Source: Desulfovibrio sp.
GTDB lineage: Bacteria > Desulfobacterota > Desulfovibrionia > Desulfovibrionales > Desulfovibrionaceae
Direction: 5' to 3'
Assembly: GCA_017454855.1 (NCBI GenBank)
Contig: JAFTCE010000088.1
Span: forward strand, 1-37,849
Length of the DNA: 37,849 nucleotides
In this document: piece after piece, positions 19,217 to 34,388 of the stretch
Position numbering within the stretch: the stretch's first letter is position 1
Layout: the number at the start of each line of letters is the position of its first letter
Translations under genes and position numbers: made by a program
Notes under the pieces: model-generated
What the model was told of the DNA's origin: nothing
Databases searched by the model: none
Seen by the model: only the letters and a program-made list of their open reading frames with translations

Positions 19217-20200
19217 TCAGAGGAGTGTGCGCCGCAATTCCTCACCAGACAGTGGACTGAGATAGGCCGGGGGCACATCGAACAGCGTCAGGCAGCCCTG
19301 CCTGCCAGCAGCAGCCATGCGGCACACTGCCCGGGCGCAGGCCGTCAGGACGCTGCCTGTGAATTCCGGATTGGAATCCAGGGTCAGTCGGTACTCAATG
19401 ACGTGCGTGTGTTCAGCGTTGGAACCGGTGAGGCCAGAACGGAACACCGTGCCGCCGTGGGCCATGCCGCCGTGGTTGGCATGGAATTCCTCTTCGCTGA
19501 TGAAGTGTACCGTCGTGTCATAATCGGCGAAATAGTTGGGCATGGTCTTGATGGTCTGTTCTACGGCAGCGGCATCTGCATCGGGTTCGAGTACCACGAA
19601 ACATTCCCTGGTGTGCTTCTGGCGCGTGTTCAGCTCTGGGCGTTTGCCCGCTCGCACGGCTTCCAGGGCACTTTCCACGGGCACGGTGTACTGTTTGGCG
19701 TTGCGTACGCCAGGAATGCGGCGGATGGCGTCGGAATGGCCTTGGCTCACGCCCCGTCCCCAGAAGGTGTAGTCCGAACCCTCTGGAAGAATGGCATTGG
19801 CGTAGAGCCGGTTGAGGGAAAACATGCCCGGATCCCAACCGGCGGAGATGAGTGCCAGATGACCGCTCGCTTGGGCGGCTGTGTCCACGGCGGTGAAATG
19901 TTCGGGGATTCTGGCATGTGTGTCAAAACTGTCGACCACGTTGAACCATGCGGCGTATTCCACGGTCTGCGTGGGCAGGTCTGTGGCGCTGCCGCCGCAG
20001 AGGATCATCACGTCGATCTTGTCCCGCCAGGACGGGGCTTCCGTCAGGGGCAGGGAAAGCGCTCCGCCCAGGGGCGTTATAGATGCTGGATCGCGCCTGG
20101 TGAACACGGCTGCCAGGGCCATGTCCGGCGTTTTCTGGAGCGCCAAGGCCACGCCGCGGCCCAGATTGCCATAGCCGATGATGCCGATGTTTTTCTTCAT
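19217..20200 (-). CDS. ddh: meso-Diaminopimelate D-dehydrogenase
   Basis: It makes meso-diaminopimelate in one reversible step from tetrahydrodipicolinate, ammonium and NADPH, for lysine and peptidoglycan. The 327 residues match the family. The N-terminal Rossmann fold has GIIGYGNLGRG, then LCGGSATDLP, NVVDSFDTHARIP, ISAGWDPGMFSLNR, and WGRGVSQGHSDAIRRI, all typical. The ATG at 20200 follows CAGGAGAACC. The C-terminus NPEFTGSVLTACARA is also conserved. The gene is single, converging with hslU. It is notable because a complete alternative route (DapL plus DapF) begins 2.5 kb downstream on the other strand. Confidence 0.95.
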   Translation of the reverse strand: MKKNIGIIGYGNLGRGVALALQKTPDMALAAVFTRRDPASITPLGGALSLPLTEAPSWRDKIDVMILCGGSATDLPTQTVEYAAWFNVVDSFDTHARIPEHFTAVDTAAQASGHLALISAGWDPGMFSLNRLYANAILPEGSDYTFWGRGVSQGHSDAIRRIPGVRNAKQYTVPVESALEAVRAGKRPELNTRQKHTRECFVVLEPDADAAAVEQTIKTMPNYFADYDTTVHFISEEEFHANHGGMAHGGTVFRSGLTGSNAEHTHVIEYRLTLDSNPEFTGSVLTACARAVCRMAAAGRQGCLTLFDVPPAYLSPLSGEELRRTLL

Positions 20201-20918: not shown

Positions 20919-21023
20919 CTGGACAGGGAATACTTTCATCCTGTGCCCCCCATGTTGCTCTGGAAAAGCACAGATATTGCTGGTAATGTGATGACTGAAA
21001 TTTTTGGAGACAAGATATATGCT

Positions 21024-22043
21024 ATGAGTGATCGATCCCGTGTAGCTGATGCGCCATCTGACTCTGCGGAAGGCGGAGAGGCAAGGGGTGTGCGCAATAT
21101 CCATGACGCCACATACAAGCTTCTTTTCGGCATACGTGAGGCAGCGAAAGACCTTTTGCGCTACCATGTGCCCGCCGATGTGCTTGGCAACGTTGATTTT
21201 GATACGCTGGAGCGTTTTCCAGAGACGAACATCGCCAAAGACATGCAGGAGCGCCGCAGCGACCTCATTTGGCGCGTGCGCACCGATGTTGGCCAATGGA
21301 GCTACATGTATATTTTGCAGGAGTTCCAGAGTCAAAACGACGTCGAGATGGTGCTGCGCATTCTTGAATACGTCGCCGTCTTTTTGCGCAGCCTGTACCG
21401 TCTTGGACTTCTCAAGCTGACGGAAAAATTGCCGTTGGTGGTTCCTGTTGTCGTGTACAATGGCATACGACCATGGACAGCGGCGCGTTCCCTGGCGGAG
21501 CTGCAAATACCGGTTCAGGAGCCATTGCGCCAGCTTCAGCCGCAAATCGGCTATTTTCTGATTGATATTGGCCGTCTGTCACAAGAATCCATTGAGAATA
21601 ACAAGAGCATTCCATCCTTCTTTTTCCGCATGGAACGCGCGCGCACCTGGACTGAAATGCTTGCAGTTCTCAAAGACACTATAGGTACTTTTTCTGGAGA
21701 GCGTCACCAGGAAATATGCCGTATTTTTCTCCATTGGTTTGTCCATGTGGGACTGCGGCGCGTCGGCATTCCTGAAGACAAGGTCTATGAAGCAACAACC
21801 CTGAAGGAGCTGGGCAGTATGCTGGAGACAAATGCACCGCATTGGCTGGATGCCATCAGAAAAGAAGGCGAAGACAATGGCCGTCGGGAAGGAGAAGACA
21901 AGGGAAGGCGTGAAGGAGACAAGCTTGCCTCAAGGCGCATTGCCAGGAATCTTGCATCCATCAACATGGATGAACGACAAATAGCCACGATGACCGGGCT
22001 GTCCCTGGAAGAGGTCAGGGAAGCGGCAGTCGGCCATGCCTGA
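21024..22043 (+). CDS. Rpn-family (PD-(D/E)xK) recombination-promoting nuclease/transposase-like protein
   Basis: The product has the Rpn core: NIHDATYKLLFG near the N-terminus, then ERRSDLIWRVR and YILQEFQSQ, which carry the Asp and E-x-Q residues of the PD-(D/E)xK nuclease variant, and VPVVVYNG. The C-terminal part has a charged repeat-like stretch (GEDNGRREGEDKGRREGDK) and a short helix-turn-helix-like end (MDERQIATMTGLSLEEVREA). The family promotes recombination in E. coli and is widespread near mobile DNA. I chose the ATG at 21024; ATGs at 20991 and 20943 are also open and no start has a close ribosome-binding site. A strong hairpin follows the stop. Beyond it lies a scar of IS and gene remnants. 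Confidence 0.8.
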   Translation: MSDRSRVADAPSDSAEGGEARGVRNIHDATYKLLFGIREAAKDLLRYHVPADVLGNVDFDTLERFPETNIAKDMQERRSDLIWRVRTDVGQWSYMYILQEFQSQNDVEMVLRILEYVAVFLRSLYRLGLLKLTEKLPLVVPVVVYNGIRPWTAARSLAELQIPVQEPLRQLQPQIGYFLIDIGRLSQESIENNKSIPSFFFRMERARTWTEMLAVLKDTIGTFSGERHQEICRIFLHWFVHVGLRRVGIPEDKVYEATTLKELGSMLETNAPHWLDAIRKEGEDNGRREGEDKGRREGDKLASRRIARNLASINMDERQIATMTGLSLEEVREAAVGHA

Positions 22044-22048
22044 ACGCA

Positions 22049-22082
22049 CAGCGCCCCTGGCAATTTTCTGCCAGGGGCGCTG
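22049..22082. terminator. Strong hairpin terminator, probably bidirectional
   Basis: CAGCGCCCCTGGCA and TGCCAGGGGCGCTG form a perfect 14-bp stem with the loop ATTTTC, six bases after the stop of the Rpn-type gene. On the minus strand it would follow the truncated reading frame ending at 22110. There is only a short T-poor tail. Confidence 0.7.
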
Positions 22083-22109
22083 GTCTTGATGACGTGTTCG
22101 GAATGCTGC

Positions 22110-22196
22110 TTACGCCGAAGCCAGTCCGGCCTTCTTGAATGCCTCGTTCCTGGCTGCCGTGGTCTGCGGCGTCGTGGCATCTTCCCCTGCAACGCC
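22110..22196 (-). pseudogene. C-terminal remnant of an unknown gene
   Basis: On the minus strand a frame of 28 codons ends in TAA (22110-22112) and reads GVAGEDATTPQTTAARNEAF, then KKAGLASA. It looks like the tail of a normal soluble protein but has no start, because a TGA stop lies directly upstream at 22197-22199. It abuts IS256-type sequence, which suggests that the rest of the gene was lost when an insertion sequence came and went. Confidence 0.35.
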
Positions 22197-22325
22197 TCAA
22201 TAGTACGGCTCATCGGCGCGGTACTCATGGAACAGAATGACGCGTGGCTGCTTCAGGACAGGTACATGCCCAAGGAGCCTCTGGAGCGGCTTATCAATGC
22301 AGCAAAGGAGCTTGCAGCGGTATAA
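22191..22325 (+). pseudogene. C-terminal remnant of an IS256 (Mutator)-family transposase
   Basis: The plus-strand frame reads ASIVRLIGAVLMEQNDAW followed by LLQDRYMPKEPLERLI and stops with TAA. The order of RL-x-G-x-x-L-x-E-x-x-x-x-W followed by RRY-like sequence is typical of the very end of Mutator-type transposases. Only about 45 residues remain and the catalytic domain is gone, so it is a dead remnant. Confidence 0.6.
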
Positions 22326-22514
22326 GCACAAAAACATGGTGCGTTGCTGACCACAAGGCAGGGGAAATGAATTTACACCACCTTGACGGACGCTATCTCA
22401 AAAAATACCAATATTGTAGATTCTGTATCCTGTCTGTATTCTCTTGAATATCCAAATAATTTTTTCTTTCTCACCATTCCATCCGCAGCGCAAACTGATT
22501 TTGCACAGCCTTTA

Positions 22515-22547
22515 TCTACAAATATGTAGAAAAATTTTGCTTTGTAG
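22515..22547. promoter_or_regulatory. Candidate enhancer (upstream activating) sites
   Basis: TCTACA-AATA-TGTAGA (22515-22530) is a perfect 6-4-6 palindrome, and a third half-site TTTGTAG (22541-22547) pairs with CTACAAA in it. Its centre is about 140 bases before the expected transcription start, a usual distance for a sigma-54 activator such as the NifA-like one in this operon. Confidence 0.4.
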
Positions 22548-22596
22548 CCTCCTCCTGGGCTGACATTCCACACGTCTGCAAAAATTTCCACTGTCA

Positions 22597-22614
22597 TTAC
22601 ACACGATTGTGAAA
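22597..22614. promoter_or_regulatory. Second palindrome upstream of dapF
   Basis: TTACACACGATTGTGAAA has symmetric CACA and TGTG separated by four bases, the same ACA-N4-TGT spacing as the site at 22515. It lies about 24 bases upstream of the -24 box. Confidence 0.3.
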
Positions 22615-22637
22615 AATTTTTCGTCATCCGCCCAAGG

Positions 22638-22653
22638 TGGCACACCTTCTGCT
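22638..22653 (+). promoter_or_regulatory. Sigma-54 promoter of the dapF-dapL-glutamate synthase-regulator operon
   Basis: TGGCACACCTTCTGCT matches the -24/-12 consensus: a perfect TGGCAC, GG and GC with the required ten bases between them, and CTGC in place of TTGC. It lies about 90 bases before the dapF start. The last gene of the operon encodes a sigma-54 activator, so autoregulation is likely. Confidence 0.6.
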
Positions 22654-22743
22654 TCCTATGGTCTTGGCGCATGGCCAGGGAGGGCGTCCATACAGGCTGT
22701 CTTTCCTGGGTATCTGCCTATCGCTGACCTTGAGGAGAAACAC

Positions 22744-23613
22744 ATGGGCATCCCCTTCACTAAGATGCAGGGCATAGGCAATGACTATGTCTACATCAAC
22801 GGCTTTGAGCAAACGGTGGCACAGCCTGGGGCTTTGGCCAGGCGCATGAGCGATCGGCATTGTGGCGTGGGTGCGGATGGTTTGGTTCTGATTCTGCCGT
22901 CAGCCACGGCGGATGTGCGCATGCGTATGTTCAATGCCGACGGTAGTGAGGCAGAAATGTGCGGCAATGCCGTGCGCTGTGTGGGCAAGTTCGCACGGGA
23001 GCGCGGGCTGGCAGCGAGTGACGAGGTGCGTGTGGAGACCCTGGCTGGGCTGAAGCTGGTGCGCTTGCACCGCCAGGAAGGTGCGATTTGCGCGGCCACG
23101 GTGGACATGGGTGCGCCTGAGCTGCGGCCCGAGCGCATTCCTGTCCTAGTGGAAGACGGCGGCGACGAGGAGCGTTTCGTGTCTCGTCTCGTGGACGTTG
23201 ACGGTAGGGCTTGGTCGGTGACCGCTGTGTCCATGGGCAATCCCCATGCCGTGATTGTGGTGCAGGATTTGGACGCCCTCGATTTGTCGACGCTGGGGCC
23301 AAAATTTGAACATCATCACTTGTTCCCGAAGCGCGTCAATACGGAATTTGTGCAAGTGCAGAGCCGCGCACGGGTGCGTATGCGCGTTTGGGAGCGTGGT
23401 GCCGGGGAAACTCTGGCCTGCGGCACCGGGGCCTGTGCCGTGGCCGTGGCCTGCCACTGCACTGGTCTGACGGAAAACGACATTGAGGTGGAATTGCGTG
23501 GCGGCGTTTTACGCATCTGTCTGGACGGCGGGCATGTGTTCATGACGGGCGGGGCGGTCACGGTCTTTGACGGTGTGTATTATGGAGAGGAAGAGCAGCA
23601 TGGCCAGCGTTAA
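22744..23613 (+). CDS. dapF: Diaminopimelate epimerase
   Basis: It converts LL-diaminopimelate to the meso form for lysine and peptidoglycan. The 289 residues are near family length. The catalytic cysteine pair is Cys73 in [15 protein letters not shown] and Cys226 in [12 protein letters not shown]; the N-terminal [12 protein letters not shown] and SMGNPHAV segments are also typical. GAGGAG stands before the ATG at 22744; the frame is open to 22609 but the earlier codons lie in the promoter region. It overlaps dapL by 14 bases, so the two are coupled and work in sequence (DapL makes LL-diaminopimelate, DapF converts it). A sigma-54-type promoter is upstream. Confidence 0.95.
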
Positions 23614-24826
23614 CCGTCATTATTTGGAACTCCAGGGCAGTTACCTTTTTTCGGAAACTGCGCGCAGGGTAGCCGCGTGTCGTGCGGCCAGGCCCGAGCG
23701 GCGCATTGTCAGCCTGGGCATTGGCGATGTTACGCGCCCCCTGGTTCCGGTCGTCATTGCGGCTCTGCACAGGGCCGTGGAGGAAATGGGCCAGGAGACG
23801 ACCTTTCGGGGTTACGGGCCGGAACAGGGCTATGCTTTTTTGCGCGAGGCCATTGTGCGACAGGACTACCAGGCCCGTGGCCTGGACATTGCGCCAGACG
23901 AGGTCTTCATCAGCGACGGGGCCAAGTCAGACCTGGGAAATTTTCAAGAGTTGTTTGCGCCGGAGAGCGTGGTGGCCGTAATGGATCCGGTGTATCCCGT
24001 CTATGTGGATTCCAATGTCATGGCCGGTCGGGCCGGGCAGTTTCGGGATGGGCGTTGGCAGCGTATTCTCTATTTGCCCTGTACCAGAGACAATGCCTTC
24101 CTGCCCGACCGGCCCGCCACGCGGCCCGATATGGTCTATCTCTGTTCCCCCAACAATCCCACGGGCGCGGCCCTGCCCCGCGACGTGTTGCGGCAATGGG
24201 TGGATTACGCACGGCGCGAGGGTTGCGTGATCCTTTTTGATTCTGCCTACGAGGCATTTGTCACAGAGCCGGAACTGCCCCGCAGTATCTACGAGCTGGA
24301 AGGCGCACGCGAGGTGGCCGTGGAATTTCGCAGTTTTTCCAAGACTGCCGGGTTCACAGGTCTGCGCTGCGCGTATACGGTGTTGCCCCGCGACGTGACG
24401 CTTGCCGACGGCAGGGGCGGTCGTGTGGCCCTGCGCGATCTTTGGCTGCGTCGTCAGTCGAGCAGGTACAATGGCTGTCCCTACATCGTGCAGCGCGCCG
24501 CCGAGGCCGTATACAGTCCGCAGGGTAGGATCGAGACGGCGGCGGATGTGGCTGCCTGTCAGGCCAACGCTCGGCGCATTGCCCAGGGCTTGCGCAGACT
24601 CGGCTTGGGGGTTTTTGGCGGCGTGAACGCGCCCTATCTCTGGGTGCAGACGCCGCAGGGCCTCTCGTCTTGGGAATTTTTTGACCTGCTGCTGGACAGA
24701 GCCGGGCTGGTCTGCACGCCGGGCGCAGGCTTTGGCCTGTCCGGCGAGGGCTATGTGCGTTTCACCGCCTTCGGCAAGCCAGCGGACACGGAAGAAGCCT
24801 TGCGGCGTCTGGCACTCATTTTGTAA
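23600..24826 (+). CDS. dapL: LL-Diaminopimelate aminotransferase
   Basis: This PLP enzyme makes LL-diaminopimelate from tetrahydrodipicolinate with glutamate as amino donor, skipping the acylated intermediates. The 408 residues match the family. The PLP lysine is Lys248 in [17 protein letters not shown]; other typical segments are [40 protein letters not shown] and DSAYEAF. The ATG at 23600 overlaps the end of dapF. The glutamate synthase genes begin 18 bases after the stop, so the enzyme that makes its amino donor is in the same operon. Confidence 0.95.
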
Positions 24827-24844
24827 CATTGGACAGGCTGCATC

Positions 24845-25963
24845 ATGTGTAGAATTGGAGCCATCAAGAGTCTTGCGCCCCTTCCCCCCTCCCGGGCGCT
24901 GCAGCTTATGCTGCCACAGCAGGAGGGGCATGACAATTCCGGCTTTGCCATGGTCATGCAGGATTTGGAGGGCATTTTCGCCCATTGCAAGGACAAACCT
25001 CTCTTATCCCTGGCCTGTACGCCCAAGGGTGAGCAGCTCGTCAACGCCTGGATGGAGGAACACGGATTTGTCCAGGTGGCCCAGTGGGCGCCAGATGTGA
25101 ACAAGCGCTCTGGCTTGAATATTGAACTCATGCCTCGCTATGTGTTCCGTAACTATGATTACCCGGAAATCTACCGCTACCGCACGGAAAAAGAGCGTGA
25201 GGAGCTGCTTCTGGACACACGGTTGGCCCTGCGCGATCTGCTGAGCGGCAAGGACGGCGGCCATGATGAGGGCTATGTGTATTCCTTCTGGCCGGACGTC
25301 CTTACGCTCAAGGAAATCGGTGATCCGGCGGACATTGCCGTGTACTTTCGTCTCTGGGAGGACACGGGTCGTTTGCTGGCGCGTAACATTGTGATCCAGT
25401 GCCGTCAAAACACCAATTATGCCATCGTGCGTTATGCGGCCCATCCCTTCTTTTTGCAGGGCTATACGCTCTGCGCCAATGGCGAAAACACGTTTTTTTC
25501 GCGCAACAGGGAATTTCAGAAGGCCCTACACCGTGGCTATACGGGTTTTGAATCTGATTCGCAATGCCTGCTCTACACGCTGCACTATGTTCTACGTGAG
25601 CTGGGCTGGCCTTTACAGTACTACAAGCATGTCATTACGCCTTTGCCCGTGCCGCGCATGGGCCAGCGTCCAGACCGCGACGCGCTTGTCAGCGTGCGTG
25701 AATCCCTGGCCCATCTGGAAATCAGCGGACCCAACGCCATCATAGCTCTCTTGCCCGACGGACGTCTGCTCGCGTGCAGCGATGCTGGAAAGCTGCGTCC
25801 TTTGGTGGTGGGACGTGGGCAGGACATGCTGGCCGTGACTTCCGAGGTCTGCGGGCTGAACGCTGTTTTCCCCGACCGCGACTTTGAGACGGATATTTAT
25901 CCTGGAGGCCGTGACCTGGTGGTCATCGACAATGGGCTGGAGGTACACCAATGGCGGCAGTAA
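24845..25963 (+). CDS. Glutamate synthase glutaminase (class II amidotransferase) subunit, archaeal-type
   Basis: The second residue is cysteine (MCRIGAIKSL), the N-terminal nucleophile of class II amidotransferases, exposed when the methionine is removed. Further family features are QQEGHDNSGFAMV, NTNYAIVRYAAHPFF-like ligand segments, NGENTFFSR and SDSQCLLYTLHYV. It releases ammonia from glutamine and passes it to the synthase subunit encoded next. In most bacteria this domain is part of one large GltB chain; here, as in archaea, the domains are separate genes. The 372-residue frame begins 18 bases after dapL and its end overlaps the next gene by 13 bases, indicating coupled translation and a stable complex. 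Confidence 0.9.
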   Translation: MCRIGAIKSLAPLPPSRALQLMLPQQEGHDNSGFAMVMQDLEGIFAHCKDKPLLSLACTPKGEQLVNAWMEEHGFVQVAQWAPDVNKRSGLNIELMPRYVFRNYDYPEIYRYRTEKEREELLLDTRLALRDLLSGKDGGHDEGYVYSFWPDVLTLKEIGDPADIAVYFRLWEDTGRLLARNIVIQCRQNTNYAIVRYAAHPFFLQGYTLCANGENTFFSRNREFQKALHRGYTGFESDSQCLLYTLHYVLRELGWPLQYYKHVITPLPVPRMGQRPDRDALVSVRESLAHLEISGPNAIIALLPDGRLLACSDAGKLRPLVVGRGQDMLAVTSEVCGLNAVFPDRDFETDIYPGGRDLVVIDNGLEVHQWRQ

Positions 25964-27537
25964 TGGTGCAGGATCTGCACTGCTGTGATTTGCCCTGGCA
26001 GGTGGATTGGCAGCAGGACAAGTGCGTACTCTGCGGCGCGTGCGCGGCGGCCTGCACCGTGGACGCCATTCACTTCGTGGCCTCGTCGCGCGGTGTGCGG
26101 GGCGCGGCCCTGCGGCAGAGGGCGGAGCTTGCGCGAGCCTGTACGGGATGCGGTATGTGTTCACGGGTGTGTCCCCAGAATGCCATCCGTCCGCTGCGCA
26201 ATCCCGATCATCGCTTTCCCTTGTTGGCGCGGGCCAATGGCCCGCTCAAGCGCGGTGGTCGCAGCAATCTCCATGCGCAGCGCACCCTAGACAAGCTGAC
26301 CGTGGGCCGCATCAGTCAGATGACGGATCCGGCCCTGGATTCTGAGCGGCACGTCTTTGATCTGCGTGCGCCCCTGGGGCGCGTACTGCCTGTGCGCGAT
26401 TTGCCCCTGCGGGTAGAGGGCGAAGCCCTATCCCTGGCCGCGCCCACGCCGCCCGTGCGTTGGATTTACCCGCTCATGTTCAGTGACATGAGCATAGGTG
26501 CCTTGTCCACGCGCGCCTGGGAGGCCATTGCCCTGGCCTGCGCCTACCTCAACGAGCAGTGTCATTTGCCGGTGCGCATGTGTTCCGGCGAGGGCGGCAT
26601 GCCGGGACGTCTTTTGGAATCTGAGCATCTGCAATACATGGTGCTGCAAATCGCCTCAGGACACTTCGGCTGGAATCGCATTCTGCGGGCTTTGCCACGC
26701 ATGAAGACTGACCCGGCAGGCGTACTCATCAAGATGGGACAGGGAGCTAAGCCCGGCGACGGCGGGCTTTTGCCAGCTGCCAAGGTGGCCGCGCACATTC
26801 AGGCCATCCGCGGCGTGCCGCGCACAACCCTGCATTCCCCAGCCAACCATCAGGGCTTGTATTCCATTGAAGAGGCCGTGCAGAAAATGCACCTTTCCTG
26901 CAATGCCGCCTTTGGCTTTCGCGTGCCCGTGGCCATCAAGTGCGCGGCCTCGGTCACCTCTGTGGCCGTGTATAACAATTTGCTGCGTGATCCCTATAAC
27001 ATTTGCGGCGGTTTTTTTCTGGACGGCATCCAGGGCGGCACGGGCGCAGCCAATGAGATATCTCTGGAACACACCGGTCATCCCCTTGCCTCCAAGCTCC
27101 GACACTGCTACCTCGCGGCTCAGGCCCAGGGCAGGCAGGGACAGATTCCCCTCTGGGTCGGCGGGGGGGTGGGGCAAACAGGCCAGGCCGCTGCGGACGC
27201 CTTTAAGCTCATCTGTCTGGGGGCCAACGGCGTGCTGGTGGGTAAGCTCCTCATCCAACTCCTGGGTTGCGTGGGCAATGAGCAGGGCCGCTGCAATGCC
27301 TGCAATACCGGTCGCTGTCCGGCGGGTATCTGCACCCAGGACATGCGGCTTGTGCGGCGGCTGGACATCGACAGGGGGGCGCAGGCCATTGTAGACTACA
27401 TGCTGGCCTTTGACGCGGAATTACGCAAATTGCTGGCCCCGGTGGGCAACACTTCCCTGCCCGTGGGCCGTGCGGATGTCCTGGTGGCCACGGATAGGGC
27501 CGTGGCGCAAGCTCTGGGTTTGGACTATGCCTGCTAG
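25951..27537 (+). CDS. Ferredoxin-containing glutamate synthase central (FMN) subunit, archaeal-type
   Basis: Residues 20-80 form a double 4Fe-4S ferredoxin: Cys25/28/31/35 (CVLCGACAAAC) and Cys64/67/70/74 (CTGCGMCSRVC). The rest is the FMN-binding glutamate synthase barrel: PLMFSDMSIGALS, GEGGMPG, KMGQGAKPGDGGLLP, HSPANHQGLYSIE, DGIQGGTGAA, LWVGGGVGQTGQAAADAFKL and the cluster CNACNTGRCPAGICTQ (Cys448/451/456/461). It makes glutamate from 2-oxoglutarate and ammonia supplied by the glutaminase subunit. No GltD-type pyridine nucleotide subunit is in the operon, so electrons probably come through the ferredoxin domains. It overlaps the gene before and is followed by the GXGXG subunit. Confidence 0.93.
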   Translation: MAAVMVQDLHCCDLPWQVDWQQDKCVLCGACAAACTVDAIHFVASSRGVRGAALRQRAELARACTGCGMCSRVCPQNAIRPLRNPDHRFPLLARANGPLKRGGRSNLHAQRTLDKLTVGRISQMTDPALDSERHVFDLRAPLGRVLPVRDLPLRVEGEALSLAAPTPPVRWIYPLMFSDMSIGALSTRAWEAIALACAYLNEQCHLPVRMCSGEGGMPGRLLESEHLQYMVLQIASGHFGWNRILRALPRMKTDPAGVLIKMGQGAKPGDGGLLPAAKVAAHIQAIRGVPRTTLHSPANHQGLYSIEEAVQKMHLSCNAAFGFRVPVAIKCAASVTSVAVYNNLLRDPYNICGGFFLDGIQGGTGAANEISLEHTGHPLASKLRHCYLAAQAQGRQGQIPLWVGGGVGQTGQAAADAFKLICLGANGVLVGKLLIQLLGCVGNEQGRCNACNTGRCPAGICTQDMRLVRRLDIDRGAQAIVDYMLAFDAELRKLLAPVGNTSLPVGRADVLVATDRAVAQALGLDYAC

Positions 27538-27603
27538 AGCAGCCTCAATTTCGTGTTTTGGCCTGGCCCAGGTGGACACAATCTACGTAATGGTGGAAAT
27601 GTC

Positions 27604-28698
27604 ATGATGCACATAGATACCCTGGACGGACACAGACGCCTTTCCACGCAGGAATTGCTGCGTATGGTCGAGGTGGCTGTGCAGCAGGGGGAAACCGAAT
27701 TTGTCATTGCGGCCTCCGGGCAGCACGACATCGGTGGGCCGCTCTGGAATCGTGCTGGCCGGGAACTTGTCTTCCATGTGCGCAATCCCGGGCAGCGCGT
27801 GGGGGCCATGTGCCTGCCAGGCACGACTGTTCTCGTGGACGGCCCAACGCCGGCGGATGCGGGCTGGCTCAATTCCGGAGGCCGTGTGATCGTACGCGGC
27901 GACGCTGGCGACACAGCTGGGCATTGCGCGGCTGCGGGCAGCATATACATCGCCGGTCGGGCAGGGACGCGCACGGGTTCGCTCATGAAGCACGATCCGC
28001 AATTTGAAGAGCCTTCCCTCTGGGTTCTGCGTACGGTGGGCGACTTTTCTTTTGAATTCATGGGCGGGGGCCGCGCCGTGGTCTGCGGCCTAGGCTGCGC
28101 GGACGGCGCATCCCCGTTGGGGGCGCGACCGTGCGTGGGCATGGTTGGCGGGGTGGTCTATGTTCGGGGTCAGGTTGACATGCTGCCCGAAGATGTGCGC
28201 CAGTCAGAGCTGGAAGCAAGCGACATAGCCTGGTTGAAGCCGGGGCTTGCGGATTTTCTCGCCGCAGTGGGACGTCCAGAGCTGCATGCCGCGCTGTCCC
28301 ACTGGGGGCAATGGCGGAAGATTACGCCACGGCCCTTTGCAGAAGGTGGGCGCACTGTTGGCCTGGACATGGCGGCATTTCGCCGTCAAGCCTGGGTACA
28401 AGGCGGTATCTTTGGCGATGTCCTGGAAGATGACGGGCGCGTGGTGGGTCTGGCCGCCTTGGGCGAAGATCGCTTGCGTATGCCGGTCTGGGCCGGACGC
28501 GACTGCCGGGATTGCCGCCTGTGCCTCAAATCGTGTCCGTGCAAGGCCATTGCGCGTGAAGAAGATGAACGCGTGGGGCAGGACAGCGCCAAGGGCATCT
28601 ATGCGCTGCAGGCAGAAAAATGCCAGGGCTGCGGCCTGTGCGCGGGTCTCTGTCCGGTTGGCGCATGGGACATGCAGGAACTTCTTGGCCATGACTAG
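27604..28698 (+). CDS. Glutamate synthase GXGXG-domain subunit with C-terminal ferredoxin domain
   Basis: Residues 20-200 form the right-handed GXGXG beta-helix of the C-terminal glutamate synthase domain (SGGRVIVRGDAGDTAG, AAGSIYIAGRAGTRTGSLM, VVYVRGQVDM). Residues 295-355 hold two 4Fe-4S motifs, Cys301/304/307/311 and Cys340/343/346/350 (CQGCGLCAGLC). Together with the preceding two genes it makes a three-chain glutamate synthase with four predicted ferredoxin-type clusters plus the one in the barrel. The ATG at 27604 has GGTGGAAATGTC upstream. It is 66 bases after the barrel gene and its last 8 bases overlap the regulator gene. The separate ferredoxin part may be the entry point for electrons. 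Confidence 0.88.
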   Translation: MMHIDTLDGHRRLSTQELLRMVEVAVQQGETEFVIAASGQHDIGGPLWNRAGRELVFHVRNPGQRVGAMCLPGTTVLVDGPTPADAGWLNSGGRVIVRGDAGDTAGHCAAAGSIYIAGRAGTRTGSLMKHDPQFEEPSLWVLRTVGDFSFEFMGGGRAVVCGLGCADGASPLGARPCVGMVGGVVYVRGQVDMLPEDVRQSELEASDIAWLKPGLADFLAAVGRPELHAALSHWGQWRKITPRPFAEGGRTVGLDMAAFRRQAWVQGGIFGDVLEDDGRVVGLAALGEDRLRMPVWAGRDCRDCRLCLKSCPCKAIAREEDERVGQDSAKGIYALQAEKCQGCGLCAGLCPVGAWDMQELLGHD

Positions 28699-30310
28699 CA
28701 GGGCTATGAGGAATAGCGGGAGCAAAAGCGGCAGTAGTGTCTCGCGGGGGACAGCGGAGAGTTTTGAAAACCAGGTACGGCTGCTGTCGGCCCTTGCCGA
28801 GCTGGTGACGACCTCGGCGCCGCTGGACGCGACGCTGCACACGGCCCTGGGACTCATGGCGCGCTACCTGCACATGATGCGCGGTGCGGTCACCTTGATT
28901 TCGCCCAGCAGCGGCGAAATTCGCATCGAAGCGGCCTATGGACTCAAGCCAGCCGAAGCCCGACGCGGGCGCTATGCTCTGGGCGAAGGTATCACCGGGC
29001 GCGTCATTGAGACCGGACGACCCATGTTCGTTTCCCAGGTGTCCCGTGAACCCCGTTTTCTCAATCGTACGCGTTCGCGCAATCTGGGCAAGGAGGATGT
29101 GTCCTTCATCTGCGTACCCATTTTGCTGCAGAACCAGGTCGTGGGTGCCATATCCGTGGACAGGTTGCTGGCGGATGAAGCCACCCTGGCCGAGGAAATG
29201 CGCTTGTTGGCCATCATTGCCACGCTTTTGAGCCATGTGGCCTTGGAAACGCAGGGGCACATGGACGATGCTGAGACGCAAACATCGCGCCCTCGCGGCT
29301 TTGTGGGCAACTGTGAGGCCATTCGTCTGGTTTACGAGCAGATTGCCATCGTGGCCCCATCCACGAGTACGGTACTCCTGCACGGCGAATCGGGCACGGG
29401 CAAGGAGTTGGCGGCTCGTGCCATCCACGCTGCCAGCGAGTGCGCCAATGGACCCTTTGTCTCGGTCAACTGCGCTGCATTGCCGGAAAACCTCATTGAA
29501 AGCGAATTGTTCGGCTACGAACGCGGGGCCTTCACCGGCGCCACCGCCATGCGTAAGGGACGCTTTGAATTGGCTGAAGGTGGCACGCTCTTTCTGGACG
29601 AAATAGGTGAACTCTCTCTGCTCACCCAGGCCAAGCTCTTGCGCGTTCTGCAGGAATGCGCCTTCGAGCGTCTGGGAGGATCCGCCACCATACGCGTGAA
29701 CACGCGCTTCATCACGGCCACCAATCGCGATCTTGAGGCCATGGTTGCCGCAGGAACCTTTCGTCGCGACCTCTTTTACCGCCTCAATGTTTTTCCCATC
29801 CTGCTGCCGCCCCTGCGCTGCAGACAGGAGGACATCCTGCCCCTGGCCCACCATTTCGCCGTACGCTTCTCTCAACGCAATGGGCGCGGCAGCGTGCGTC
29901 TCTCCCTGGCCGTCATGGAGATGCTGCAGCGCTATGCCTGGCCTGGCAACATCCGAGAGCTGGAAAATGTCATGGAGCGCGCCGTGCTGCTCGTGGGCCG
30001 GGCCGGGCTGATCCTGCCCAGGCATCTTCCCCCGGCAGTACATGGTGACCGGCTTTTCGCCACACAGGCCGCTGATGCGGCTGTGACGCGACAGCGCAGC
30101 GGCAGCCTGCAGGAGCAGATTGAGGAACTGGAGCGGGCGGCCATTGTCGAAGCCCTGGAGGCCAGCCGTGGCCATGTGGGTAAGGCGGCGGAGAGACTGG
30201 GCTTGACAGAGCGCATTGTCGCCTTGCGCATGAAAAAGTACGGCATCAGCTATAAGACCTTTCGTGAAGAACTCCGGGGACAGGGGGGCGCTCCTCAAAA
30301 TGACCATTAG
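28691..30310 (+). CDS. NifA-like sigma-54-dependent activator (GAF, AAA+, Fis-type HTH)
   Basis: This encodes 539 residues. A GAF sensor domain (about 35-185) precedes the AAA+ domain, with Walker A GESGTGKE (232-239), the sigma-54 contact loop GAFTGA (279-284), Walker B FLDEIGE (301-307) and LFYRLNVFPI. The C-terminus has a Fis-type DNA-binding helix-turn-helix (HVGKAAERLGLTERIVALRM). It probably activates the sigma-54 promoters before dapF and before amtB. The absence of a receiver domain means control by a ligand or by PII through the GAF domain, as known for NifA, rather than by phosphorylation. Start at 28691 overlaps the previous gene; an ATG at 28706 is an alternative. No nif genes are in the window, so the target is nitrogen assimilation rather than fixation as far as can be seen. 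Confidence 0.9.
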   Translation: MTSRAMRNSGSKSGSSVSRGTAESFENQVRLLSALAELVTTSAPLDATLHTALGLMARYLHMMRGAVTLISPSSGEIRIEAAYGLKPAEARRGRYALGEGITGRVIETGRPMFVSQVSREPRFLNRTRSRNLGKEDVSFICVPILLQNQVVGAISVDRLLADEATLAEEMRLLAIIATLLSHVALETQGHMDDAETQTSRPRGFVGNCEAIRLVYEQIAIVAPSTSTVLLHGESGTGKELAARAIHAASECANGPFVSVNCAALPENLIESELFGYERGAFTGATAMRKGRFELAEGGTLFLDEIGELSLLTQAKLLRVLQECAFERLGGSATIRVNTRFITATNRDLEAMVAAGTFRRDLFYRLNVFPILLPPLRCRQEDILPLAHHFAVRFSQRNGRGSVRLSLAVMEMLQRYAWPGNIRELENVMERAVLLVGRAGLILPRHLPPAVHGDRLFATQAADAAVTRQRSGSLQEQIEELERAAIVEALEASRGHVGKAAERLGLTERIVALRMKKYGISYKTFREELRGQGGAPQNDH

Positions 30311-30317
30311 GTAGAAT

Positions 30318-30358
30318 TGTTTCGACCCGTTGAGACATATTCCACGCAATTGTCGAAA
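30318..30358. promoter_or_regulatory. Candidate activator site upstream of amtB
   Basis: TGTTTC-N8-GAGACA (30318-30337) is an imperfect inverted repeat, and TTTCGAC (30320-30326) pairs with GTCGAAA (30352-30358). The site lies about 110-150 bases upstream of the -24 box at 30467, a typical enhancer distance. It is not the same sequence as the candidate site upstream of dapF. Confidence 0.3.
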
Positions 30359-30405
30359 GAGCCAAGCCGAAGTGCCGCAGGTCGTGCCTGGATGGGGCGC
30401 AGCAG

Positions 30406-30421
30406 AAAAAAATTTTTTTTT
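30406..30421. promoter_or_regulatory. A7-T9 tract between candidate enhancer and sigma-54 promoter
   Basis: Seven A residues are followed by nine T residues. Such tracts bend DNA. Its position between the enhancer candidate and the promoter at 30467 would help the loop that sigma-54 activation needs. Confidence 0.4.
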
Positions 30422-30466
30422 GAAAAACAGAGGTATGGACAGCATCTGAGGCCACATGGTGTCGAC

Positions 30467-30482
30467 TGGCATGATTTCTGCC
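30467..30482 (+). promoter_or_regulatory. Sigma-54 promoter of amtB-glnB-glnN
   Basis: TGGCATGATTTCTGCC has GG and GC at the exact -24/-12 spacing, with TGGCAT for TGGCAC and CTGC for TTGC. It lies about 95 bases before the amtB start. The shared CTGC variant with the promoter at 22638 suggests they form one regulon. Confidence 0.55.
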
Positions 30483-30577
30483 TTGGGGCTGGTCATGGCC
30501 TGCCCATGCAGGGTGGGGAACATTGCCAGACTGCTGCCCCGATCGTCATGGGGCCGCAACAAAGGAAGGAAATTGCT

Positions 30578-31783
30578 ATGAATGCCGCAGACACTGCTTT
30601 CATTTGCCTCTGCGCCGGCCTCGTTTTTCTCATGACGCCGGCCTTGGCCTTGTTTTATGGCGGACTGGTGCGTGCCCGCAACATTTTGTCCACATCCATG
30701 CACAGCTATGCGTCGCTGGGTATTATTTCCGTGCTTTGGGCCATTTTGGGCTATTCTCTGGCCTTTGGCCCAGATCACGGCGGTCTCCTGGGCGATCTCT
30801 CTTACTGCTTCCTCCAGGGCGTGGACAGCGCTCCGGCACCAGCGGCAGCTAACCTGCCGCATACAGTTTTTATGGCCTTTCAGTGCATGTTCGCGGCCCT
30901 GACGGTAGCGCTCATTTCGGGTTCCTACGCCGAGCGTATACGCTTTCCGGCCATGCTGCTTTTTTCAGCTCTGTGGTTGATCCTGGTCTACTGCCCCATG
31001 GCCCATTGGGTATGGGGTGGCGGCTGGATGGGGAAGATGGGAGCATTGGACTTTGCGGGGGGCGCAGTAGTGCATATGTCTTCTGGAGCGGCAGCTTTGG
31101 CCTGTGCCCAAGTCCTTGGGCCGAGATGCAATCTCGGCCTGCCCGTAAAGCCTAACAATCTACCCATGACCCTGCTGGGGGGCGGACTGCTCTGGTTTGG
31201 TTGGTTTGGCTTCAATGCGGGTAGCGCTCTGGCTGCCGGAACCCTGGCCGGGCATGCTTTTGTCACAACGCACATGGCCACGGCCAGCGGCATCTTGGGC
31301 TGGATGTTGGTGGAATGGCGGCGCACGGGCAAGCCCACGACCCTGGGAGCTGTGTCCGGCGCTTTGGCGGGTTTGGTGGCCATCACGCCGGCAGCGGGTT
31401 TTGTGCAGATACTGCCCGCTATGGTCATCGGTTTTTTGGGGGGCATGCTCTGCTACGGCGGCGTCTTGCTCAAGGAGCGGTTCGGCTATGACGACGCCTT
31501 GGACGCCGTGGGTATCCACGGCCTGGGCGGGACGTGGGGCGCTCTGGCCACGGGCCTGTTCGCCTGTGCAGCCGTTAACGGCGTGGATGGGCTTTTTTAT
31601 GGCAATCCGCATCAAGCATGGGTGCAAATCATTTCCATCGTGGCCACATGGGGCTATTGCTACGCTATGACCCGCAGTATCTTGATGGCCATGAAGGCCG
31701 TCATGCAGCTACGTGTGCCGCAGGACGCGGAATTTTCCGGCCTCGACCTGAGCGAACACAATGAACGCGGCTATTCGTTGTAG
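30578..31783 (+). CDS. amtB: Ammonium transporter
   Basis: This inner-membrane channel imports ammonium. The 401 residues carry about eleven hydrophobic spans. Typical segments are the N-terminal ALALFYGGLVRARNILS, SGSYAERIRFPAM, GAVVHMSSGAAAL and GIHGLGGTWGALATGLFA; the last two give the twin histidines of the pore. AAGGAAGG stands before the ATG at 30578; the frame is open to 30317 but that stretch is the promoter region. The next gene encodes PII, which in other bacteria binds and blocks the transporter when ammonium is plentiful. The C-terminal tail (QDAEFSGLDLSEHNERGYSL) is the usual PII-responsive end. Confidence 0.95.
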   Translation: MNAADTAFICLCAGLVFLMTPALALFYGGLVRARNILSTSMHSYASLGIISVLWAILGYSLAFGPDHGGLLGDLSYCFLQGVDSAPAPAAANLPHTVFMAFQCMFAALTVALISGSYAERIRFPAMLLFSALWLILVYCPMAHWVWGGGWMGKMGALDFAGGAVVHMSSGAAALACAQVLGPRCNLGLPVKPNNLPMTLLGGGLLWFGWFGFNAGSALAAGTLAGHAFVTTHMATASGILGWMLVEWRRTGKPTTLGAVSGALAGLVAITPAAGFVQILPAMVIGFLGGMLCYGGVLLKERFGYDDALDAVGIHGLGGTWGALATGLFACAAVNGVDGLFYGNPHQAWVQIISIVATWGYCYAMTRSILMAMKAVMQLRVPQDAEFSGLDLSEHNERGYSL

Positions 31784-31816
31784 CCGCAGACTGTTTTCAT
31801 GCAGGAGGAAGGCGTC

Positions 31817-32155
31817 ATGAAGAAGCTGGAAATCATCATCCGGCCCGGCATGTTTGAAAGCGTCAAGTCCGCGTTGACGGATTTGGGCATTCAAGGGCTG
31901 AATTATACGGAAATCATGGGGTTTGGCCGTCAGCATGGACATACGGAAGTCTATCGCGGCACCACAATGCGGGTGGACTGCCTGCCCAAGATCAAAATTG
32001 AGGTGGTTTTGGCCGATGCAAAGCTGAAAGATGTCCTTCAGTCCGTGATCGCCGTGGCCCGTACGGGACAGGTGGGCGACGGCAAGATATTTGTCAGCGA
32101 TATTGCAGATGCCATTCGCATACGCACGGGCGAACGCGGCGAAGACGCACTGTAA
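31817..32155 (+). CDS. glnB: PII nitrogen signal protein lacking Tyr51
   Basis: The trimeric PII protein senses 2-oxoglutarate and ATP/ADP and controls transporters, enzymes and activators. The 112 residues match the family. Conserved parts are GFGRQHGHTEVYRG, LPKIKIEVV, TGQVGDGKIFV and IRIRTGE. The T-loop residue 51, the tyrosine that is uridylylated in E. coli, is methionine here (YRGTTMRVDC), while Tyr46 is kept. Signalling by uridylylation is therefore unlikely; effector binding alone would carry the signal. GGAGGAAGG precedes the ATG at 31817. It lies between amtB and glnN, and both products, as well as the NifA-like regulator, are plausible partners. Confidence 0.93.
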   Translation: MKKLEIIIRPGMFESVKSALTDLGIQGLNYTEIMGFGRQHGHTEVYRGTTMRVDCLPKIKIEVVLADAKLKDVLQSVIAVARTGQVGDGKIFVSDIADAIRIRTGERGEDAL

Positions 32156-32195
32156 GCCCGGACAACACGCCATGCACAACACAAGGAGAGAAAGA

Positions 32196-34388
32196 ATGCA
32201 ATCCCCCCGTACCAGAGTCCTGCTTGAGGCCATGAACACGGCCCCCGTGGCACCGTCTTCAGAGGAGCAAAAGGGCAGGGCAGCCGAGGAAATTTTCGGG
32301 CAAGATGTCTTTGGCCTGTCGGCCATGCGCAAGCGTCTGCCCAGGGATGTGTACCGCAATCTTGAGCGCATCATCCACAATGGCGAACGTCTGGATGCGG
32401 CCATGGCCGATGTGGTGGCCAGCGCCATGAAGGAATGGGCCATGGAGCGCGGTGCCACGCACTATACGCATTGGTTTCATCCCATGACCGGCCTGACCGC
32501 CGAAAAACACGATGCTTTTCTGACGCCTGCGGGCGACGGGCAGGTCATCAGTGAGTTTTCCGGCAAGATGCTCATCAGTGGGGAACCGGACGCATCCTCC
32601 TTCCCCTCCGGCGGTCTGCGCTCCACCTTCGAGGCCCGTGGCTATACGGCCTGGGATCCCTCGGCCCCGGCCTTTGTCATTGCCCAGCCCTACGGAGCCA
32701 CGCTGCACATACCCACATATTTTTATTCCTATTCCGGGGAAGCCTTGGACAGAAAGATTCCCCTCCAGCGTTCCATTGCGGCCCTGTCGCGCCAGGCATT
32801 GCGCATCCTGCGTCTGTTTGGCAATACCACGGCCACGTTCGTGCGTCCCAACGTGGGGCCGGAGCAGGAATATTTTCTCGTGGACAAGGGCCTGGCCGCA
32901 CTGCGGCCCGACCTGCTGCTCACGGGCCGCACCCTGCTGGGCGCGCCTTCGCCCAAGGGGCAGGAGATGGAAGATCATTATTTCGGCGCCATCCCCGAGC
33001 GCGTCATGAGCTTTATGCAGGATGTGGAAATCGCCTTGCTCAAGCTGGGTATTCCGGCCAAGACGCGGCACAACGAGGTGGCGCCAGGGCAGTTTGAGTT
33101 GGCACCGGTCTTCGAGGATGCCAACATGGCCTGCGATCACAACATGCTCTGCATGAACATGATGCGCCACCTGGCCCCGCGCCACGGCTTCCTCTGCCTG
33201 CTGCACGAAAAGCCCTTTGTCGGCGTCAACGGCAGTGGCAAGCACAACAACTGGTCGATCAGCGATTCTGAGGGCAACAATTTGCTCAATCCCGGGGCCA
33301 CGCCCCAGGACAATGCCCAGTTCCTTGTCTTTCTGGCGGCGGTGCTGCGTGCCGTACACAAACATGCCTCTGCCCTGCGCCTGGGCACCGTGGGCGCGGG
33401 CAATGACCATCGTCTGGGCGCCAACGAGGCCCCCCCAGCCATACTTTCTGTCTATCTGGGTGACCAGCTGGCAGAGGTCTTGGAGGCCCTTGTCAATGGC
33501 GGTCGGGCTGCGCAAGGCAGGGAGCATGTCTTGGAAATCGGCGTTTCCACCCTGCCCCCTCTGCCCGTGGATCTTTCGGATCGCAATCGCACCAGTCCTT
33601 TTGCTTTTACGGGCAATAAGTTTGAATTTCGCGCCGTGGGTTCGTCACAGTCCGTGGCCCCGGTGAATATTGTCCTCAATGCGGTCGTGGCTTGCGCCCT
33701 GGATGACATTGCCACGGATCTGGAAGCCTCAACGTCGGCGGGGACGCCCCTGAACGCGGCCTTGCAGGAATTGTTACCGCGTCTCTTCCGCGAACACATG
33801 CCCGTGGTCTTCAACGGGAACGGCTACGCCGCTTCCTGGACTCAAGAGGCCGCACGCCGGGGCTTGCCCAACGACAGGGACAGCGTGGCGGCCCTGGAAC
33901 ACTACAGCGAACCAGCTGTGATGGACATTTTTTTGCGCTGCGGCATTCTGAGCGAGCGCGAAATGCTCTCGCGGCAGGAAATTTTGTTGGAAAATTACGG
34001 CAAGACCCTGTGCATCGAAGCCCGGGTCATGTCTGACATGATCCGTTCTTCCGTCTTGCCCGCAGGCCGTGAAGCGCAACGTCGGGCAGCGGAAACCCTG
34101 CTCAAAACGCGAGAGGTGCTGGGCCCGGAGACTGCCCAATGTGAGGAAGCGTTTTTTGTCAGTCTGCGTTCGCAGGTGACGGCGCTTGCTGCTGGCGTGG
34201 AGGCATTGGAAGCAGTGCTTGCCTCCGTGGCCGCCACAGAGGGCGTCCTCGCCCAAGCCCGTGCCGCGCGCGATGGCATCTTACCGGCCATGCAGGCATG
34301 TCGGGAGCATGCCGATGCCTTGGAGCGCATGGTTGACGATGAACTTTGGACACTGCCCAAGTACGCTGAACTACTTTGGGTAAATTGA
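32196..34388 (+). CDS. glnN: Glutamine synthetase type III
   Basis: It makes glutamine from glutamate, ammonium and ATP, the first step of the cycle completed by the glutamate synthase upstream. The 730 residues are the length of the type III (GlnN) family, longer than the about 470 of type I. Typical features are THYTHWFHPMTGLTAEKHDAFL, FRPN-like VRPNVGPEQEYFLVD, TRHNEVAPGQFELAPVFEDAN, GVNGSGKHNNWS, NDHRLGANEAPPAI and DRNRTSPFAFTGNKFEFRAVGS. The C-terminal 130 residues form the family-specific helical extension. AAGGAGAG stands before the ATG at 32196. Type III enzymes are not known to be adenylylated, which fits a PII without a uridylylation site. The operon ends here. Confidence 0.95.
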   Translation: MQSPRTRVLLEAMNTAPVAPSSEEQKGRAAEEIFGQDVFGLSAMRKRLPRDVYRNLERIIHNGERLDAAMADVVASAMKEWAMERGATHYTHWFHPMTGLTAEKHDAFLTPAGDGQVISEFSGKMLISGEPDASSFPSGGLRSTFEARGYTAWDPSAPAFVIAQPYGATLHIPTYFYSYSGEALDRKIPLQRSIAALSRQALRILRLFGNTTATFVRPNVGPEQEYFLVDKGLAALRPDLLLTGRTLLGAPSPKGQEMEDHYFGAIPERVMSFMQDVEIALLKLGIPAKTRHNEVAPGQFELAPVFEDANMACDHNMLCMNMMRHLAPRHGFLCLLHEKPFVGVNGSGKHNNWSISDSEGNNLLNPGATPQDNAQFLVFLAAVLRAVHKHASALRLGTVGAGNDHRLGANEAPPAILSVYLGDQLAEVLEALVNGGRAAQGREHVLEIGVSTLPPLPVDLSDRNRTSPFAFTGNKFEFRAVGSSQSVAPVNIVLNAVVACALDDIATDLEASTSAGTPLNAALQELLPRLFREHMPVVFNGNGYAASWTQEAARRGLPNDRDSVAALEHYSEPAVMDIFLRCGILSEREMLSRQEILLENYGKTLCIEARVMSDMIRSSVLPAGREAQRRAAETLLKTREVLGPETAQCEEAFFVSLRSQVTALAAGVEALEAVLASVAATEGVLAQARAARDGILPAMQACREHADALERMVDDELWTLPKYAELLWVN

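Follow-up and report, generated by a model that had tools for sequence, protein, structure and literature searches.

Peptidoglycan precursor synthesis is usually regarded as a housekeeping process. On contig JAFTCE010000088.1 of a Desulfovibrio sp. genome, the diaminopimelate (DAP) epimerase gene dapF and the LL-DAP aminotransferase gene dapL stand directly in front of glutamate synthase genes and a gene for a sigma-54 enhancer-binding protein (EBP), and we analyzed the 37,849-nt stretch that carries them (the window; positions are counted from its first letter). In Prevotella ruminicola 23, dapF clusters with glnN-2 and gltBD and shows large changes between ammonium levels, and a separate gene for meso-DAP dehydrogenase, ddh, lies elsewhere and is highest on peptides (PMC5552732). 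That organism belongs to another phylum, and the part of the report dealing with its cluster neither names dapL for it nor describes a sigma-54 promoter or enhancer. In Corynebacterium glutamicum, the Ddh route is used at high ammonium and another route at low ammonium, but the other route is the succinylase one, and the split is attributed to the dehydrogenase's low affinity for ammonium and not to a sigma-54 operon (PMC8396482). The initial annotation of the window had called a nitrogen-dependent switch for a cell-wall precursor unusual, which is too strong a word in view of the ammonium-dependent flux split in Corynebacterium (PMC8396482) and the nitrogen-responsive dapF cluster of P. ruminicola (PMC5552732). 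DapL and Ddh also occur in one genome in Bacteroides fragilis and Clostridium thermocellum, although the passage citing them says nothing on their regulation (PMC4176475). In Bacteroides uniformis, dapF, dapL, gltBD and the glutamine and asparagine synthase genes decrease together, but the trigger there is the carbon source (pectin, WBE) and not nitrogen (PMC5609589). In Desulfovibrio vulgaris, 9 operons for nitrogen metabolism and transport form the predicted regulon of DVU1949, a one-component EBP, but the main text of that report (supplements not covered) contains neither "diaminopimelate" nor "dapL" (PMC4641369). The D. vulgaris genes DVU1231-1234 form an ammonium transporter and PII operon (PMC3333781), and it has been proposed that sigma-54 is generally linked to the cell exterior and to the precursors for it (PMC3162934). 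A literature search without supplementary files found no published report of dapL under sigma-54 control, and there was nothing on it in the portion of PMC7311316 covered.

We found that the dapF-dapL operon of the window probably belongs to a sigma-54 nitrogen-assimilation regulon, as judged from its promoter architecture and its recurrent linkage to nitrogen genes. A sigma-54-type promoter in front of dapF, already pointed out in the initial annotation, was confirmed, and upstream of it we detected a perfect palindrome, TCTACA-N4-TGTAGA, which that annotation had not mentioned (Table 1). The -24/-12 site of dapF has the GG and GC dinucleotides at the correct spacing, and transcription would be expected to start at about 22664. 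In a dapL tree, the window gene groups with those of L008 and L009, two Desulfovibrio assemblies that are also the nearest relatives sharing its gene order. In both, the sigma-54 site is kept at -100 to -106, and TGGCA-N3-CTTCTGCT is retained at nearly equal distance while the flanking dapF upstream sequence has diverged.

The palindrome was discovered by seeking spaced dyads upstream of 20 such promoters, the window included. The results showed that TACA-N4-TGTA, the core of TCTACA-N4-TGTAGA, occurs in 10 of the 20 regions, while the commonest dyad in each of 30 shuffles reached counts of 3 to 7. A perfect copy was met in 1 of 20,000 dinucleotide-matched 450-bp sequences; the window holds a single one, which is also the sole perfect copy in the 2.95-Mb genome. 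We further searched 149 genomes of the family Desulfovibrionaceae, the sample used for the surveys below, and found that five of nine perfect extended copies precede sigma-54 sites, namely those of dapF (window), the type III glutamine synthetase gene glnN (G003, G146 and G089) and the ammonium transporter gene amt (G059). The motif TGT-N10-ACA, which we take to be a NifA-type activator site, was tried and rejected (1 of 20 upstream regions, 1.65 expected).

The spacing between palindrome and promoter, measured start to start to the -24 element, is 123 nt before dapF in the window, 125 nt in L008 and 123 nt in L009. Before amt it is 124-125 nt in L013, L015, L115, L116 and L119 and 116-134 nt in L036, L042 and L043, and thus stays within 116-134 nt across all 8 relatives with a palindrome-promoter pair. 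Before glnN it is 100-122 nt in L024, L025, L044, L052, L144, L156 and L159. A further copy often lies about 214-247 nt from the -24 element; besides the possible half-site of the window, L008 has a site with 2 mismatches at 233 nt, and one at 235 nt precedes amt in both L115 and L119.

Upstream regions of relatives were surveyed after leaving out self loci, identical regions and starts too short or divergent, with near-copies kept (L115/L119, L024/L025, L153/L157). Palindromes with at most one mismatch were found within 500 bp upstream of amt in 5 of 12 regions, of glnN in 8 of 33 and of dapF in 2 of 63 (counts in which some regions come from the discovery set and some are near-copies), and none was found before dapL (116 regions), gltB1 (23), the EBP gene (15) or glnK (15). 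Sigma-54 sites scoring at least 13.5 within 300 bp upstream were present before amt in 5/12 and glnN in 6/33 regions (0.10 expected for each) and before dapF in 2/63 (0.30 expected), and absent before dapL (0/116, 0.75 expected), gltB1 (0/23) and the EBP gene (0/15). Since palindrome and promoter are paired before amt or glnN in relatives, these results indicate that dapF-dapL carries the promoter architecture of the regulon.

The conserved linkage in related genomes that the initial annotation had envisaged was also observed. The count covered 46 plant-type dapL loci in 45 genomes, G006 contributing two loci; the truncated L160 (G125) was left out. Near these loci we found dapF at 26, glnN at 24, glutamate synthase at 17, an EBP gene at 16 and any nitrogen gene at 27. 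Where at least 4 kb of upstream sequence was available, nitrogen genes were near plant-type dapL in 24 of 36 loci, compared with 1 of 20 sampled loci (of 84) for the other DapL type (Fisher 4.9e-6). The glutamate synthase beside plant-type dapL is of the split type at 9 loci and of the long type at 8 (1551 aa in G026, the single one scanned). In Bacteroidota, the order dapF-dapL-glnN was seen in L045, L047, L067 and L076 and dapL-glnN in L046, and neither in L041 and L050. Because the linkage recurs across the surveyed loci, with either kind of glutamate synthase and also, near glnN, among Bacteroidota, the position of dapF-dapL beside nitrogen genes is no accident of this genome.

Several observations weigh against regulon membership. 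The -24/-12 site of dapF proves little by its score alone, because six window sites reach 13.5 (2.2 expected in shuffles). Across the whole genome, the sigma-54 consensus with one mismatch gave 56 matches compared with 23 for a backward control, so such sites do exist, and the dapF site is not among them, differing from the consensus at two positions. The dyad search alone is no proof, because an AT-rich dyad reached an equal count; of the palindrome tests, the whole-genome and spacing ones alone do not depend on the discovery set. In the genome, near-copies of the palindrome are not enriched (3 places within one mismatch vs 4 for the backward control), and in the family the perfect extended form was found at 9 places vs 4 for its backward control. 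Four of these nine copies (G052:C44:2788, G098:C3:35204, G007:C4:208948 and G010:C20:28463) lie beside none of the tested genes, and are possibly further regulon members or chance occurrences. Palindrome and promoter stand together in only 3 of 63 dapF upstream regions (window, L008 and L009), the copy in L008 with 2 mismatches, and the spacing before glnN is looser in L031, L038, L153 and L157 (155-217 nt) and in G003 (191 nt). The amt gene of the window itself is preceded by no palindrome copy with 2 or fewer mismatches, and its -24/-12 site is weak, with a score that chance would give about 20 times in window-sized sequence; amt of L009 is preceded by the sigma-54-like site TGGCACGGTTTCTGCC. 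The queries for the linkage control were taken from plant-type dapL genomes, so that the comparison would not pick up distant homologues or type I glutamine synthetase around dapL of the other type. The dapF-dapL genes of two genus members, G137 and G146, are not beside nitrogen genes. The P. ruminicola parallel is inconsistent in direction, "limiting" being given once and "non-limiting" in the figure legend, the principal-component text and the discussion (PMC5552732).

Taken at their strongest, these points would mean that dapF-dapL merely lies in an amino-acid gene cluster with housekeeping expression, and that the -24/-12 site and palindrome are fortuitous; the insignificance of the site by itself in the window, the near-copies no commoner than the control and the unlinked genes of G137 and G146 all fit this. 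We regard such an explanation as improbable, because the perfect palindrome is unique in the genome, its spacing is nearly constant before dapF and amt, and the promoter is retained against a diverged background. No sigma-70-like promoter was matched at 22040-22760, which is weak support for sigma-54 control because only 0.7 would be expected there. On sequence grounds, regulon membership of dapF-dapL is well supported and remains the probable reading.

Table 1. Genes and candidate regulatory elements of the window
Feature	Position	Strand	Remarks
ddh, meso-diaminopimelate dehydrogenase	19217-20200	-	TIGR01921 412 bits, cut-off 180.6; best solved relative 3wyb, 440 bits
Possible second enhancer site, only right half TGTAGA intact	22405-22420	+	233 nt upstream of the -24 element
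Palindrome TCTACAAATATGTAGA, candidate upstream activator site of EBP	22515-22530	+	TCTACA-N4-TGTAGA, perfect
Sigma-54-type -24/-12 promoter of the dapF operon, TGGCACACCTTCTGCT	22638-22653	+	score 13.5/15; counterparts in L008 and L009
dapF, diaminopimelate epimerase	22744-23613	+	TIGR00652 306 bits, cut-off 114.65
dapL, LL-diaminopimelate aminotransferase, plant-type	23600-24826	+	TIGR03542 545 bits, cut-off 364.7; best solved relative 6oxm
gltB1, probable amidotransferase subunit, N-terminal Cys	24845-25963	+	Met-Cys start
gltB2, glutamate synthase core with 4Fe-4S motifs	25951-27537	+	PF01645 193 bits; Fer4, two stretches
gltB3, GXGXG subunit, C-terminal 4Fe-4S motifs, 381 aa	27553-28698	+	PF01493
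One-component sigma-54 enhancer-binding protein (EBP), GAF-AAA-Fis	28691-30310	+	PF00158 232 bits, PF01590, PF02954; GAFTGA at residue 279
Weak sigma-54-like site before amt, TGGCATGATTTCTGCC	30467-30482	+	12.5/15
amt, ammonium transporter	30578-31783	+	TIGR00836 445 bits
glnK/glnB, PII protein	31817-32155	+	PF00543 97 bits
glnN, type III glutamine synthetase	32196-34388	+	PF12437 250 bits

The six genes from dapF to the EBP gene follow each other on the plus strand with successive gaps of -14, 18, -13, 15 and -8 nt; the 14-nt dapF/dapL overlap and the 18-nt dapL-gltB1 distance are as first described, and so is the place of ddh on the other strand. The EBP gene ends the same run, because it overlaps gltB3 by 8 nt, and a gap of 267 nt separates it from amt. 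All of the 14 best solved relatives of DapF carry the name diaminopimelate epimerase, and its two Cys-containing motifs, which we take to be catalytic, both align with 2otn. DapL is an LL-DAP aminotransferase by the curated cut-off of its model, its best solved relatives bear that name, and it is predicted to transaminate tetrahydrodipicolinate (THDP) with glutamate. An aminotransferase on contig C50 was considered as a second DapL of the genome and rejected: its best match is alanine transaminase (624 bits, short of that model's own cut-off of 647), and since it falls under the cut-off of each DapL model shown, we did not count it as DapL. The open reading frame after the C50 gene looks by eye like a homoserine dehydrogenase.

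The initial annotation had placed a complete glutamate synthase and a sigma-54 activator after dapL. The genes were found there, whereas completeness of the enzyme is not established, because gltB3 is short and gltB1 had no Pfam match at 1e-3. We take the enzyme to be of the split, archaeal-like type, and the D. vulgaris genes DVU1823-1821 presumably encode a glutamate synthase. The core and GXGXG parts were both found by Pfam, in gltB2 and gltB3. The Met-Cys start of gltB1 is invariant in 12 of 12 aligned sequences, the window included, as are many other columns, and presumably resembles that of class II amidotransferases; a weak partial match to a PurF-type amidotransferase was obtained (E 0.016). 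Counterparts of the third subunit in the two relatives scanned, L011 (17002-19299) and L149 (6540-8840), have 765-766 aa and an NAD(P)H-oxidoreductase domain, PF07992. An NAD(P)H-oxidizing, GltD-like part is absent from the Pfam matches of the three window glt genes, the rest of the genome not having been searched for it.

The EBP has the AAA+ domain PF00158 and the GAFTGA loop of a sigma-54 activator, a receiver domain is not among its Pfam matches, and rpoN is present in the genome. Against the NifA model TIGR01817, it scored 455.2 bits, below the cut-off of 528.85. We also looked at orthology to DVU1949, and found no iorAB-type match in 10 proteins beside five EBP paralogues in four other genomes, where the neighbors were partly scanned. 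Three of those five paralogues lie near nitrogenase-type genes (PF00148 twice, PF02579 once).

From these features we propose that dapF-dapL-gltB1-gltB2-gltB3-EBP would be transcribed as one operon and that nitrogen shortage would be its signal. The EBP would bind the palindrome at 22515-22530, perhaps also the half-site at 22405-22420, and activate sigma-54 RNA polymerase at 22638; the route to meso-DAP that uses glutamate would then be made together with the enzyme supplying this glutamate. The EBP would thereby amplify itself and probably drive amt-glnK-glnN as well, and the effect may be to keep up DAP flux when the glutamate pool is short. Ddh would be a separately acquired second route outside EBP/sigma-54 control. 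The amino-transfer step and the epimerase would here share a nitrogen-type enhancer and promoter with the enzyme producing the amino donor, which would tie the cell-wall supply of sulfate reducers to their nitrogen status in a simple and testable way, and the palindrome offers a concrete DNA element for defining the regulon.

To place Ddh in this scheme, we analyzed the distribution of DAP routes. Plant-type DapL was detected in 46 of the 149 family genomes (45 over the cut-off), the other DapL type with strong matches of at least 563 bits in 84 (59 over the cut-off) without overlap with the plant type, Ddh in 27 (26 over the cut-off) and the succinylase DapD in none (0/149). By combination, 84 genomes have DapL type 2 (one with Ddh), 46 the plant type (16 with Ddh), 10 Ddh only, and 9 none detected. 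Within the genus, plant-type dapL is present in 9 of 9 genomes and ddh in 2 of 9, and neither the other DapL type nor DapD was detected in any of the 9, acetyl-route genes (DapH) not being searched. In the 7 genomes without ddh, DapL thus appears to be the sole DAP route, and since no other route was detected there, it must function in cells with ample nitrogen as well. We found no palindrome (best 3 mismatches) and no sigma-54 site (best 11.0/15) in the 300 bp upstream of ddh. In a Ddh tree that left out L095 (self) and the partial L114, the Ddh of the window and that of G126 fall in different groups, so that at least one of the two genus ddh genes was probably gained separately; the window Ddh is at best 66% identical to family members.

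The initial annotation had gone further and interpreted the locus as a nitrogen regulon in which DapL/DapF work under nitrogen shortage and Ddh takes over when ammonium is plentiful. Membership of dapF-dapL in the regulon held up through promoter architecture and linkage, whereas a takeover by Ddh has weaker support. Neither palindrome nor sigma-54 site lies in the 300 bp upstream of ddh, DapL is the one route detected in 7 of 9 genomes of the genus (DapH not searched), ddh is missing from 11 of the 27 nitrogen-linked genomes, and P. ruminicola has its highest ddh level on peptides (PMC5552732). Such a full nitrogen switch is thus doubtful, although not without points in its favor. Both routes are in the genome, the Corynebacterium Ddh needs high ammonium (PMC8396482), and in the two ddh-bearing genus members, dapF lies right behind palindrome and promoter (window) or follows glnN at a distance of about 74 nt (G126). 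Where plant-type dapL is nitrogen-linked, 16 of 27 genomes have Ddh, and where it is not, 0 of 19 do (Fisher 1.7e-5), with G125, whose contig ends inside dapL, counted as unlinked; with short contigs excluded, the figures are 14/24 and 0/11. After correction with the dapL tree, 2 to 4 independent pairs were left on supported branches and 4 to 7 on all branches, none of them opposite, and the test is underpowered because these pairs are too few for significance.

The same distribution would also fit a route replacement, in which Ddh is being acquired in the Desulfovibrionaceae and displaces DapL-DapF, with this genome as an intermediate carrying two redundant routes and no switch. The family is spread over genomes with DapL type 2, plant-type DapL, both routes and Ddh only. 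DapF was not found in 6 of 6 tested Ddh-only genomes (of 10; G070, G086, G011, G017, G019 and G034) and was found in 10 of 10 tested double-route genomes (of 16), which suggests that relatives can make DAP by Ddh alone and is in line with a series of replacements. The separate tree group of the window Ddh and its identity of at most 66% to family members agree with this. Replacement leaves unexplained, however, why, within the plant-type dapL genomes, Ddh is found only where dapL is nitrogen-linked, and 30 plant-type genomes have no detected ddh. Redundancy or replacement, itself a possibility rather than a firm expectation, is the account that we favor at present over a true switch. We consider it rather unlikely that the whole forms a nitrogen-controlled two-route circuit, in which the sigma-54/EBP operon would tie glutamate-dependent DAP synthesis to glutamate supply and the acquired, ammonium-using Ddh would cover the operon-off state, letting lineages place dapL there.

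Outside the family, ddh directly follows dapL on the same strand in six Veillonella loci (L060, L071, L075, L078, L080 and L083) and lies about 2.7 kb away in L068; the adjacency in the six speaks against strict alternation of the two routes there. In the window, a YhgA-like/Rpn-family nuclease gene (PF04754) was found at 20943-22043, between a tag-like gene and the dapF promoter. The dapL tree also places DapL from two genomes of Sutterellaceae and one of Alcaligenaceae (L018, L029 and L032) within the Desulfovibrionaceae sequences, a position that points to transfer between bacteria or to mixed assemblies.

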